Source: Caulobacter sp. BK020 (GTDB lineage Bacteria; Pseudomonadota; Alphaproteobacteria; Caulobacterales; Caulobacteraceae). Taken from it: a DNA stretch of 64,000 bases. The stretch is from NCBI RefSeq assembly GCF_004342605.1, contig NZ_SLZL01000013.1, positions 1 through 64,000 on the forward strand, in the 5' to 3' direction. Position 1 is the stretch's first letter, and each line of letters opens with the position of its first letter. The notes below the pieces were generated by a model. It ran no database searches and had not been told where the DNA came from. It was given only the letters and a program-made list of their open reading frames with translations. Below, piece by piece: positions 20,309 to 42,884 of this stretch. The position numbers were made by a program, and so were the translations under genes.

Positions 20309-20420
20309 TATTCGACCGCGTTTTGCTCACAAATTTAGCGTTGATACACTAATGTCACCGAGCACCTGAACTTGCGGAACCTTGAGGCGCGGGACGAGTT
20401 TCCGCGCGGAAGAGGTTTTC

Positions 20421-22406
20421 ATGCACGCCTATACGCATCCGCTACAACGACGCGAGTCGGAGCGCCGTTCCTTCGGGGACTCGGACCAGATTCCAGACGC
20501 CGCCACGCCGCCGCCGGCGCCCCTGGCCATGCCCGACCAGCCGCTGCACCGCGCCGCCGAGCCGCGTCGTTTCACGCCGGAACCGGGCCTGGGACGGCGG
20601 AGAGCAGCCCTGGCGGCGTTCTGCGCCCTGGCGACCGGCCTGGCGGTGTTCGCGGTGACGGCGGCCATGGCCCGCGACGGGCTGGACCCGCTGGAGGTCG
20701 TGCATGTGAGCCTGATCCTGGTGCTGTTCGGCTGGATGGCCTTCTCGTTCGCGGCAAACCTGGGCGGCCTGTGGCTGTCGCGACGGGCCGACGCCTGGGA
20801 GCGGGCCATGGCCCGGGCCCCGCTGCCGGCCCTGACCACCCGCACCGCCCTGCTGGCCCCGATCTATCACGAGGACGTCGGGCCGTTCTTCGCCCGGCTG
20901 GCCACCATGCGGGCCGGGCTTCACGCCCTGGGCCTGACGCCGGTGTTCGACCTCGTCGTGCTCAGCGACAGCCGCCGGCCCGAGGTGGTCGCCGATGAGC
21001 AGCGGCGCTTCGCCGCCTTCCGGCGCGGCGGCGTCGGTCCCCGGGCCTATTACCGCCATCGCCCCGAGAACACCGACCGCAAGGCCGGCAATGTCGCTGA
21101 ATGGGTGCGCCGCCACGGCGGGGCCTATGACCACATGGTGGTGCTGGACGCCGACAGCCTGATGGACGGCCTGACCCTGTGGCGGCTGGTGGCGGCCATG
21201 GAGGCCGACCCGTCGCTGGGCCTGATCCAGACCGCCCCGACCATCGTCGGGCGCCGCACGGTGTTCGGCCGGCTGGAGCAGTTCGCCAACAATCTCTACG
21301 GCCCGCTGGCCGCCTGGGGCGTGGCCTGGTGGAGCGGGGCCGAGGGCAACTATTGGGGCCACAACGCCATCGTGCGGGTGGCGGCGTTCGCCCAGGCTGG
21401 CGGCCTGCCGCACCTGAAGGGCAAGAAGCCGTTCGGCGGCCACATCCTGAGCCACGACTTCGTCGAGGCCGCGTTCCTGCGCCGGGCCGGCTGGGGCGTG
21501 CGCCTGGCCCCGGCCCTGGGCGGCAGCTTCGAGGAGAGTCCGCCGACCCTGATCGACCACCTGATCCGTGACCGCCGCTGGTGCCAGGGCAACCTGCAGC
21601 ATCTGGGCGTGGTGAGCGCCGCGGGCCTGCATCCGGTCAGCCGGCTGCATCTGGCGCGCGGCGTGCTGAGCTACGCCCTGGCCCCGCTGTGGATCGCCCT
21701 GGTGGTGACCGGCGCCCTGCTCTCGGCCCCCGACGCGGCGACCGGCGAGGCCGGCGGCTACCCCCTGGCCGGGGCGGCCGTCCTGGCCGTCAGCCTGGGC
21801 TTCGTGCTGCTGCCCAAGCTGATGTCCTACGCGATGATGCTGTCCGAGGGGCGGGCCCAGCGGTTCGGCGGCGCCTGGCGGGCCTTGGCCAGCGTCGGGC
21901 TGGAGACCGTGGCCTCGACCCTGACCGCCCCGATCATCATGGCGGCCCACACCCGCGCCCTGCTGTCGGTGGCCCTGGGCCGCGACGCCGGCTGGTCGGC
22001 CCAGCAGCGCGACGAGGGCCGGCTGAGCGGTCGCGCGGCCCTGGCTTTCCACTGGCCCGAGATGGTGATCGGCCTTTCCCTGGCCGCGCTCGGCCCGGCG
22101 ATGGGCGCGGGCCTGTCGCCGTGGCTGGCGGTGGCCGCCGCCAGCCTGGTCGCCGCGCCCTTCATCGTCTGGTGGACCGCCAGCATCGCCCGCGGCGTGC
22201 GCCTGAGGGACGCGGGCCTGCTGCTGACGCCGGGCGAGCGCGCGACGTCGCCGGTTCAGGTCGAGGGCGTGAACAGCTTCAGGCCCAGTATGCCCGAGAC
22301 GATCAGCGCCAGGCAGACCAGCCGCCCGGCCGTGGCCGGCTCCTTGAACAGCAGGATGCCGACGATGGCCGTGCCCACGGCCCCGACGCCGGTCCAGACC
22401 GCATAG
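20421..22406 (+). CDS. opgH: Glucans biosynthesis glucosyltransferase OpgH/MdoH
   Basis: Inner-membrane GT2 enzyme that polymerises UDP-glucose into the backbone of osmoregulated periplasmic glucans. In Caulobacter it is reported to be essential and to affect cell shape. Several membrane helices flank a cytosolic GT2 domain with LLAPIYHEDV, FDLVVLSDSR, VLDADSLMDG, GHILSHDFVEAAFLRR and RDRRWCQGNLQH, which cover the DD, TED-like and QxxRW motifs. The ATG at 20421 (MHAYTHPLQRR) is preferred over the TTG at 20382 because GAAGAGG precedes it. The last 50 residues are encoded antisense to sugE and look like read-through beyond the natural end LLLTPGERATSP. Confidence 0.93.
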   Translation: MHAYTHPLQRRESERRSFGDSDQIPDAATPPPAPLAMPDQPLHRAAEPRRFTPEPGLGRRRAALAAFCALATGLAVFAVTAAMARDGLDPLEVVHVSLILVLFGWMAFSFAANLGGLWLSRRADAWERAMARAPLPALTTRTALLAPIYHEDVGPFFARLATMRAGLHALGLTPVFDLVVLSDSRRPEVVADEQRRFAAFRRGGVGPRAYYRHRPENTDRKAGNVAEWVRRHGGAYDHMVVLDADSLMDGLTLWRLVAAMEADPSLGLIQTAPTIVGRRTVFGRLEQFANNLYGPLAAWGVAWWSGAEGNYWGHNAIVRVAAFAQAGGLPHLKGKKPFGGHILSHDFVEAAFLRRAGWGVRLAPALGGSFEESPPTLIDHLIRDRRWCQGNLQHLGVVSAAGLHPVSRLHLARGVLSYALAPLWIALVVTGALLSAPDAATGEAGGYPLAGAAVLAVSLGFVLLPKLMSYAMMLSEGRAQRFGGAWRALASVGLETVASTLTAPIIMAAHTRALLSVALGRDAGWSAQQRDEGRLSGRAALAFHWPEMVIGLSLAALGPAMGAGLSPWLAVAAASLVAAPFIVWWTASIARGVRLRDAGLLLTPGERATSPVQVEGVNSFRPSMPETISARQTSRPAVAGSLNSRMPTMAVPTAPTPVQTA

Positions 22407-22604: not shown

Positions 22605-22663
22605 GGTGAGCGGGGTCGTCCCCGGGACAGCAAAAAAGGCGCAGGGTCGTCCCCGCGCCTTTT
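22605..22663 (-). promoter_or_regulatory. Guanidine-II (mini-ykkC) riboswitch
   Basis: On the minus strand two hairpins follow each other, each capped by the loop ACGA. P1 is AAGGCGCGGGGACGACCCTG closed by CGCCTT. P2 is CCGGGGACGACCCCGC. Paired ACGR tetraloops are the hallmark of the mini-ykkC class that senses guanidine. The second hairpin lies just before a GGGGG ribosome-binding sequence that can itself pair (CCCCTTCGGGG). Translation of sugE starts about 30 bases further on. This class is commonly found in front of sugE-type exporters in proteobacteria. Confidence 0.93.
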
Positions 22664-22711
22664 CTAGATAGGACCACCGGACCGGGCGGCAAGCCCCGAC
22701 CGGGCCACCGC

Positions 22712-23422
22712 CTAGCGGCTGGTGGTGCTGTACAGGATCTGGGCCTGCTCGTAGTTCTTGCCGATCGAGGTGTCGTCCAGCTTCTTCAGGCGCATATAGA
22801 CCAGGCCGGCGTGGCCGTCGGCCCAGGCGTCGTCCCACGACACCGTCAAGCGCTTGACGTCGCTGACCGTCAGGTCGTTGCGGATCAGGCGCAGCTGCGG
22901 CTTGTTCTCCCAGGTCGCCCAGTCGTGCAGGGCGTTGGCCAGGGCCTGGGCCTGGGCGTCGCCCTGGGCGTACTGGATGGTGATGGTGCAGACGTTCTTG
23001 TTGCTGCCGGGGTTGTCGACGGCGATCAGATACGGCTTGCCGATGTCCAGAACCCACTGCTCTTTCTTCTTCTTCATGCCCGCCGCCTTGGTCAGCGCCG
23101 CATAGTCGCCGCCGACGACACCCGGCTTGCAGACCTTGTCCAGCACGCCCAGCAGCTGCAGCGCGACCGGGTCGGTGGTCGGCGGGCCGCGGGTCGGGGC
23201 GACGTATTCCGGGGCCTGGCCGGCAGGCGGCGCGGCCACGGCGGGCGTCGCCGTCATGGTGTCGGACGGGGTGGCCGGCGTGGCGGGGGTCTGGGCCGCC
23301 GGATCGGCGGCGGGCGCGGTGGCGGGAGCCGTAGCGGTCGGAGCAGTCGGAGCGGTTTGCTCCTGGGCGACGGCGGTCGAAACCGCGCCGAGAGCGATCA
23401 GGCTGGCAAGCGCAAGGCGCAT
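22712..23422 (-). CDS. Secreted hypothetical protein with Ala/Pro/Thr linker
   Basis: Signal peptide MRLALASLIALGAVSTAVAQ, then a low-complexity Ala/Pro/Thr linker (about residues 21-75) and a C-terminal domain of about 160 residues beginning LQLLGVLDKVCKPGV and containing two cysteines that could pair. The overall plan (xxDKVCKPG ... TKAAGMKKKKEQW ... VCTITIQYAQG) resembles the next gene upstream, which has VFKSVCLSAGTNAG and FCQVGYYDG at matching places, so the two are probably distant paralogs. The frame is open to 23446 but the ATG at 23422 begins a clean signal peptide. Function unknown. Confidence 0.75.
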   Translation of the reverse strand: MRLALASLIALGAVSTAVAQEQTAPTAPTATAPATAPAADPAAQTPATPATPSDTMTATPAVAAPPAGQAPEYVAPTRGPPTTDPVALQLLGVLDKVCKPGVVGGDYAALTKAAGMKKKKEQWVLDIGKPYLIAVDNPGSNKNVCTITIQYAQGDAQAQALANALHDWATWENKPQLRLIRNDLTVSDVKRLTVSWDDAWADGHAGLVYMRLKKLDDTSIGKNYEQAQILYSTTSR

Positions 23423-23559
23423 GGTCGAGTTATCCCCGTTAGGCAAGAGGTCGGCATTAAAACCGACAAGCGGTCCCTCGCAACCCTTATGGTGGCCGAT
23501 TAAGGCGGAGAAGCGGTCACAGGTGTAATTTTTTCACCGGAGATATGCGGCGTGGCGCC

Positions 23560-41038: not shown

Positions 41039-42646
41039 CTAGTGGCGGAACACCCGCACGCCGGTGAAGGCCATGGCCAGGCCCTGCCGGTCGGCGGCCT
41101 CGATCACCTCGGAGTCCCGCATCGAGCCGCCCGGCTGGATGATCGCCGTCGCCCCGGCCTCGGCCGCCTGGATCAGGCCGTCGGCGAACGGGAAGAAGGC
41201 CTCCGAGGCGCAGGCGCAGCCCTTCAGGTCCAGGCCGAAGTCGGCGGCCCGCAGCGCCGCGATCCGGGCGCTGTCCTTGCGGTTCATCTGGCCGGCCCCG
41301 ACGCCCAGGGTCTGGCCGGCGCGGGCGTAGACGATGGCGTTGGACTTGACGTGCTTGCCGACCGTGAAGGCGAAGAGCATATCGCGCACCTCCTCGTCCG
41401 TGGGCTGACGTTTCGTGACGATCTTCAGGTCCGAGGCCTTGATCCGGGCGTCGTCGCGCGACTGGACCAGGAAGCCGCCGGCCACCGACTTGAACGTGTC
41501 GCCGGTCGACAGGGCGTCGGGCAGGCCGCCGGTCACCAGCAGGCGCAGGTTCTTCTTGGCCGCGAACACCGCGACCGCGTCGTCGTCGGCCTCCGGCGCG
41601 ATCACCACCTCGGTGAAGATCTCGACCATCGCCTCGGCCGCCTCGCGGGTCAGGCGCGAGTTCACGGCGACAATGCCGCCGAAGGCCGAGGTCGGATCGC
41701 AGGCCAGGGCGCGCTCATAGGCCTGGCGCTGCGACGCGCCGACGGCCACGCCGCAGGGATTGGCGTGCTTGATGATCGCCACGGCCGGGCCTTGGGCCGG
41801 ATCGAACTCGGCGATCAACTCGAACGCCGCGTCGGTGTCGTTGATGTTGTTGTAGCTGAGCGCCTTGCCCTGCAGCTGGGTGGCGGTGGCCACGCCCGGG
41901 CGCGGGTTGGGGAAGGTGTAGAAGGCCGCCTTCTGGTGCGGGTTCTCGCCATAGCGCATGGTCTGGCGCAGCTCGCCGGCGATCGACTTGCGGGCCGGGA
42001 AGTCCTGGCCCAGCGGGCCCTCTTTCAAGGTTTGGGCGAACCAGGCGGAGATCGCCGCATCATAGGCCGCCGTGCGGGCGTAGGCCCGGGCCGCCAGGAT
42101 CTGGCGGAGTTGCAACGAAGTCGCGCCGCCGGCCTTCAGCGCCTCCAGCACCTCGGCCAGGTCCGAAGGATCGGTGCAGACGGCGACATAGCCGTGGTTC
42201 TTGGCCGCCGAGCGGATCATGGCCGGGCCGCCGATGTCGATGTTCTCGACGCATTCGGCGTAATCGCCGCCCTTGGCCACCGTGGCCTCGAACGGATAGA
42301 GATTCACGTACAGGATATCGATGCCGCCGATGCCGTGGTCGGCCATGGCCCTGGCGTGCTCGGGGGCGTCGCGCACGCCCAGCAGGCCGCCGTGCACGAT
42401 CGGGTGCAGGGTCTTGACCCGGCCGTCCATCATCTCCGGAAAGCCCGTCAACTCCGAGACGTCCTTGACCGGAAGACCCGCCGCGGCGATCGCCGCCTTG
42501 GTGCCGCCGGTGGAGACCAGCTCGACGCCGGCCGCGTGCAGGACCTGGGCGGCCTCGACCAGGCCGGTCTTGTCGGACACCGACAGCAGGGCCCGTTTGG
42601 GAGCGACCAGATCGGGGGCGGACGGATAGTCGGGGGCGGCGGGCAC
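41039..42646 (-). CDS. purH: Bifunctional AICAR transformylase / IMP cyclohydrolase
   Basis: Last two steps of de novo purine synthesis. The N-terminal IMP cyclohydrolase/MGS-like domain (about 1-200) begins with [20 protein letters not shown] and includes [20 protein letters not shown]. The C-terminal transformylase follows with [14 protein letters not shown]-type sequence (here [14 protein letters not shown]), [22 protein letters not shown] and [20 protein letters not shown]. The start is GTG at 42646, preceded by GAGGAG; 535 aa is standard. The upstream leader is a ZTP riboswitch. The product therefore acts on the intermediate (ZMP) whose accumulation the leader senses. Confidence 0.95.
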
Positions 42647-42679
42647 GGCGGACTCCTCGGGTCTGTTGACGACGGAATG

Positions 42680-42753
42680 GAGCCCAGGCGCGCGGCGGTT
42701 GAGGTCCGCGCTCCCCGATGGTTGCCCATCACTAGCGCCAGTCACGCGGACGG
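42680..42753 (-). promoter_or_regulatory. ZTP (pfl motif) riboswitch
   Basis: Read on the minus strand the leader contains GTCCGCGTGACTGGCG, then GATGGGCAACCATC (hairpin), CGGGGAGCGCGGAC, and after ACCTCAACC the closing CGCGCGCCTGGGC. GTCCGC pairs with GCGGAC to form P1. The conserved GTGACTGGCG, CGGGGAGCG and CCTGGGC segments are those of the ZTP/ZMP-sensing pfl RNA. The RNA ends 34 bases before the GTG of purH, a gene this class commonly controls in proteobacteria. Confidence 0.9.
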
Positions 42754-42884
42754 CGCGGAAAATACGGAGGCCGGCGGGGGAGTCAATGCAGGTCTTGGAC
42801 CCGTCGGACCCGGCCTGATCGCCCACCGATCGGCCCAAGAGGGCGGGCGCGCTGACCGTAAAGGCCAGTGCGCCGACCTTGTCT

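Follow-up and report, generated by a model that had tools for sequence, protein, structure and literature searches.

A Guanidine-II riboswitch directly upstream of sugE in Caulobacter sp. BK020, with a predicted pairing of its second hairpin to the start codon

Analysis of a stretch of 64,000 nucleotides from Caulobacter sp. BK020 (in the following referred to as the window) revealed, on the minus strand directly in front of sugE, an RNA that very probably is a Guanidine-II riboswitch and controls a SugE/Gdx guanidinium exporter as an ON switch at the level of translation. Membership in the RNA family, the identity of the gene, its synteny with the RNA, a conserved start codon and predicted mutually exclusive folds, the latter with a shuffle control, were established in this analysis. 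A riboswitch of this class at this position had already been proposed in the initial annotation on the basis of two hairpins with ACGA loops preceding the SugE start, and both hairpins are indeed present in the stretch between sugE and the end of the upstream gene at 22712. The first, P1 (22658-22639, minus strand GCGCGGGG-ACGA-CCCTGCGC), carries its loop at 22650-22647, and the second, P2 (22624-22611, minus strand CGGGG-ACGA-CCCCG), at 22619-22616, the two being separated by a linker of 14 nt that holds a T6 run (22637-22632).

A search of the window with cmscan against all of Rfam 15 assigned both hairpins to RF01068 (Guanidine-II, mini-ykkC; 22658-22611, minus strand) over the full model (1-48), with 48.4 bits, the gathering cut-off being 32 bits, and an E-value of 1.6e-6 for the 64-kb window or 2e-8 for a stretch of 801 bases. 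The covariance-model search that had been suggested as a check thus gave a score well above threshold, and the proposal of a Guanidine-II riboswitch directly before sugE was confirmed by this score together with the SugE profile described below. In the available passages of PMC5486947, the class is defined by two GC-rich hairpins with ACGR tetraloops; the RNA in the window has two such hairpins, both loops reading ACGA, and its 3' boundary in RF01068 lies 31 nt from the GTG of sugE (named by NCBIfam), i.e., near the ribosome site of a guanidine exporter gene, as is typical of the class, which accompanies genes for guanidine exporters or enzymes. Throughout the genome (5.13 Mb), this copy was the only Guanidine-II match, and a Guanidine-I match was not found. 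The arrangement, shared with the class including the 14-nt linker and the location directly before a sugE-type ribosome site, and shared likewise with the E. coli sugE (gdx) leader, where a Guanidine-II RNA also precedes the gene, is standard and well described, so the general picture is unchanged. What our analysis contributes is a confirmed guanidinium sensor ahead of the single SMR exporter detected in the genome and a detailed, testable pairing model. None of this is novel, save perhaps for two habits of the genus, namely the gating of the start codon and a P1 hairpin that, together with its U-tract, resembles a terminator of the upstream gene. Among the titles, beginnings of abstracts and passages retrieved for guanidine riboswitch or mini-ykkC together with Caulobacter, nothing indicated a dedicated study of the RNA in this genus.

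The gene behind the RNA (22579-22256, minus strand; GTG start, 107 aa) was identified as sugE, encoding an SMR exporter of the gdx type, by NCBIfam, Pfam and a relative of known structure in the PDB. Its product reached 137 bits with the SugE equivalog NF008512 (PRK11431, SugE) against a cut-off of 126 and 95.9 bits with the SMR family PF00893, for which it was the only match in the genome, and named relatives at 79-93% identity came mainly from Caulobacter. The best solved relative was 6wk5, which we take to be Gdx-Clo, with 110.9 bits and an alignment spanning query residues 1-101 (counted from Ala2), while EmrE was much further away (42.8 bits). We infer that the protein exports guanidinium as SugE/Gdx proteins do.

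With respect to the start codon, the longest frame opens at TTG 22633 within the P1-P2 linker, so that the longer frame runs into the RNA, as had been stated in the initial annotation. This TTG is the sole upstream alternative start, and by eye no purine-rich Shine-Dalgarno (SD) sequence precedes it. Since the SugE and SMR profile matches both begin at residue 1 of the frame from GTG 22579, and since the start codon occupies this position throughout the 32 genus leaders (GTG in 17, ATG in 14 and TTG in one), we consider GTG 22579 the homologous start, which upholds the start codon chosen there. The SD sequence GGGAG (22590-22586, minus strand) is located 6 nt before it. Annotation of a wrong N-terminus at TTG 22633 is possible, but the expectation in the initial annotation that gene callers would make this error is too strong. 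The same annotation had regarded sensor and exporter as a complete sense-and-export unit, and this stands insofar as each is the sole member of its family found in the genome; the word complete, however, is weakened by a protein resembling urea or guanidine carboxylases encoded elsewhere, owing to which guanidinium may elicit responses besides export. This protein (G000:C16:23051-26692, on another contig) was assigned to the urea carboxylase family with 1823.7 bits against a cut-off of 1303.85 and is possibly a guanidine carboxylase. The genome-wide search detected no Guanidine-II match near its gene.

Comparison with related genomes revealed that the RNA and sugE are regularly found together. 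In a sample of 149 genomes at the level of the Caulobacteraceae, a Guanidine-II match was detected in 23, with 21 of them above the cut-off, and sugE was located downstream in all 23 cases (21 scored by script, L016 and L017 by eye). At the level of the taxonomic class, 39 of 385 genomes had a match; from these, 29 loci beyond that of the window were fetched, and script-based matching recognised an SMR-like start at 16 of them but not at the remaining 13, which are followed by other genes. In a sample of 61 genomes of the genus, 49 encoded a SugE relative. We fetched 30 of these sugE loci, ten of which belonged to genomes already counted at the family level, and RF01068 scored over threshold at 18 of the 20 further ones. 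As for the two below threshold, L044 kept both ACGA hairpins with a longer linker (by eye), and L031, whose SugE is 87% identical, kept the stems with both ACGA loops changed, which makes it a candidate for a leader naturally blind to guanidine. The set of 32 genus leaders used here consists of the 14 family-level matches from the same genus and the 18 further loci, with L031 and L044 left out, and its loci are related rather than independent. Though L031 seems to be a decayed or non-binding copy, it is extremely improbable that the RNA in the genome studied here is such a relic as well, since the window copy retains both ACGA loops, the stems, the SD sequence, the start codon and an intact SugE frame.

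Upstream of P1, we identified a putative -10 element (TATCTA, 22670-22665, minus strand) by its recurrence in the genus, where this box or one of a few variants is located 14-16 nt upstream of the P1 loop in 28 of the 32 leaders. A putative -35 element (TTGCCG, 22692-22687, minus strand) precedes it, and inspection by eye shows a TTGC-like element upstream of the -10 box in many relatives; scanning for a plain sigma-70 consensus gave no hit here. Transcription probably starts with the first base of P1 (about 22658). A start inside P2 had been named beforehand as a finding that would speak against the riboswitch, and the likely promoter upstream of P1 places it elsewhere. Between the stop codon of the upstream gene and the -10 box, many genus leaders also display an inverted repeat (by eye; in the window at 22659-22710, minus strand), which occupies the spacer in some of them and surrounds the -35 element in others. 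Hairpins in this region had a mean z of -1.6 over the 32 loci when compared with mononucleotide shuffles, the value for the window being -0.3. The repeat is a candidate for a hairpin at the 3' end of the upstream gene or for an operator.

For the Guanidine-II class, the available parts of PMC5486947, PMC7544219 and the review PMC12186494 propose a stem-loop overlapping both P2 and the ribosome site, which cannot coexist with the folded riboswitch. A comparable pairing of the P2 strand with the ribosome site is predicted for the window, where the minimum-energy fold contains an OFF helix (22625-22571, minus strand) that excludes P2. In this predicted helix, CCGGG (22625-22621) pairs with CCUGG (22575-22571) in codons 2-3, ACGAC (22619-22615) with GUCGU (22582-22578) at the start codon, and CCC (22614-22612) with GGG of the SD sequence (22590-22588). 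A stretch of the window extending from shortly upstream of P2 to codon 6 reached -25.4 kcal/mol in the OFF fold versus -22.4 kcal/mol with P2 forced. Among the 32 genus leaders, the forced OFF fold was more stable than the forced ON fold in 27, the exceptions being L012 and L025, in which it is not favoured, and L011, L013 and L051, which cannot form the tested pairs. As a control, the downstream sequence was replaced by 150 shuffles per locus, the loci again being related and not independent. The energy gained by breaking P2 amounted to a mean of -5.2 kcal/mol in the observed sequences versus -0.9 kcal/mol in the shuffled ones, and the difference between free and P2-forced energy was below the shuffle mean in 29 of the 32 leaders and within the lowest 5% in 19. 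The disruption of P2 in the window itself was matched by 12 of 150 shuffles (8%) and is not significant alone.

Based on these folds, whose energy model includes neither loop-loop contacts nor the ligand, the predicted lock would chiefly concern the start codon and, to a lesser degree, the SD sequence. Forcing P2 opened the start region (-3 to +3) in 29 of the 32 leaders and closed it in no leader, a comparison made without shuffle control, and the unpaired fraction of this region increased from a mean of 0.38 to 0.75 (0.18 to 0.74 in the window). The unpaired fraction of the SD sequence (-12 to -7) rose by more than 0.05 in 16 leaders and fell by more than 0.05 in eight, with a mean of 0.22 in the free and 0.27 in the P2-forced state; for the window, it decreased from 0.36 to 0.30. 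These SD values count against the translational switch described below. The trinucleotide GUC is found immediately 5' of the start codon in 29 of the 32 leaders. Folding of the whole leader at the 23 family loci likewise gave no separation of ON and OFF states by SD accessibility (up in 11, down in ten and equal in two; 0.17 to 0.18 in the window). A simple SD-sequestering hairpin directly 3' of P2 was rejected as a conserved platform, since it performed no better than re-paired shuffles, with 113 of 168 paired cells compared to 110.7 (sd 3.3) and 1462 of 5000 shuffles reaching the observed value, and thus displayed no covariation overall. One column of this hairpin displayed a C-G/U-A exchange, for which the Fisher p of 0.0075 refers to a column chosen post hoc and is uncorrected for kinship.

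According to the proposed mechanism, P2 would open in the absence of guanidinium, and its strands would pair with the start region, codons 2-3 and part of the SD sequence, so that the ribosome site would be hidden by the three pairings given above. Binding of guanidinium, which we infer, would stabilise P1 and P2 via a contact between their loops and break the OFF helix, and the loss of this helix would free chiefly the start codon, the SD sequence remaining paired in part according to the predicted ON fold. In this respect, the leader in the window resembles the published translational ON switch. As stated in the accessible text of PMC13064478, a 20-bp deletion over P2 led to constitutive expression of gdx in E. 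coli, which is expected if the P2 strand is the strand that pairs with the ribosome site. A difference concerns the controlled element: accounts of the class, as far as their available passages go, name the SD sequence or the ribosome binding site, and exposure of the SD sequence upon guanidinium binding is the mechanism given for the E. coli gdx leader in PMC13064478, whereas the predicted OFF helix of the window gates the start codon and codons 2-3 more than the SD sequence.

Control might alternatively be exerted mainly on transcription, with Rho-dependent termination of the untranslated leader being relieved by guanidinium. For the guanidine-II leader of E. coli sugE, the passages available from PMC7815308 report a Rho-dependent 3' end 76 nt downstream of the transcription start and a sugE lacZ fusion whose expression more than doubled when rho was mutated. 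This 3' end was demonstrated in E. coli; the leader in the window measures only about 79 nt from P1 to the GTG. A Rho effect may moreover add to translational control rather than replace it, and we regard control mainly at the level of transcription as possible, though rather unlikely.

Unlike the Guanidine-II class, P1 in the window is flanked by an A4 run on its 5' side and by U6 (22637-22632, minus strand) directly on its 3' side, and the hairpin with its U-tract resembles an intrinsic terminator. This seems to be common in the genus, as a T run of at least 4 just 3' of P1 was found in 26 and a GC-rich stem of 11-16 bp, including the preceding bases, in 30 of the 32 leaders; of the class-level loci, few had these features by eye, e.g., L057, L060 and L083. 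The upstream gene (22712-23446) ends about 50 nt before P1, and a match to STnc40 on the P1 hairpin and U-run remained below threshold (24.7 bits, cut-off 45). P1 and the U-tract could hence be regarded chiefly as the intrinsic terminator of that gene and the resemblance to Guanidine-II as a by-product. We consider this very unlikely, since both ACGA loops, P2 and the position before sugE are conserved, RF01068 is matched with the score given above, and a plain terminator scan reported no site at P1 and the U-tract. The roles of P1 as terminator and as part of an aptamer are compatible in any case. Titles and beginnings of abstracts retrieved for mini-ykkC and terminator included none about P1 as a terminator.

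Tentatively, P1 could therefore play a dual role next to the riboswitch function preferred here. It might form the first half of the aptamer in a transcript of its own beginning at the first base of P1; in read-through transcripts, its stem, lengthened by the A-tract, and the U-run might form a terminator that insulates sugE. The ACGAC of the P2 loop, being antisense to GUCGU, might at the same time gate the start codon directly. If this holds, an element of 100 nt would combine a sensor and a terminator with a promoter boundary and a lock on the start codon, and the double use of P1 and a ligand-binding loop that pairs with the start codon would be small, neat points on compact leader design.

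Apart from the leader, two further observations were made in the window. On the strand opposite to sugE, a frame for the glucan glucosyltransferase MdoH (20382-22406, plus strand) overlaps the 3' end of sugE by 151 nt (22256-22406). The antisense MdoH tail AVAGSLN..TA recurs at several genus loci (e.g., L004, L005, L025-L027, L030 and L034), with overlaps of 151-154 nt. Besides Guanidine-II, a single Rfam family scored above threshold in the window, with one match to a ZMP/ZTP riboswitch (42675-42755, minus strand; 59.3 bits, cut-off 39), which overlaps the start of a mechanically called frame (41039-42838, minus strand). By eye, this frame looks like the purine enzyme PurH, and its true start probably lies downstream of the ZMP/ZTP RNA.
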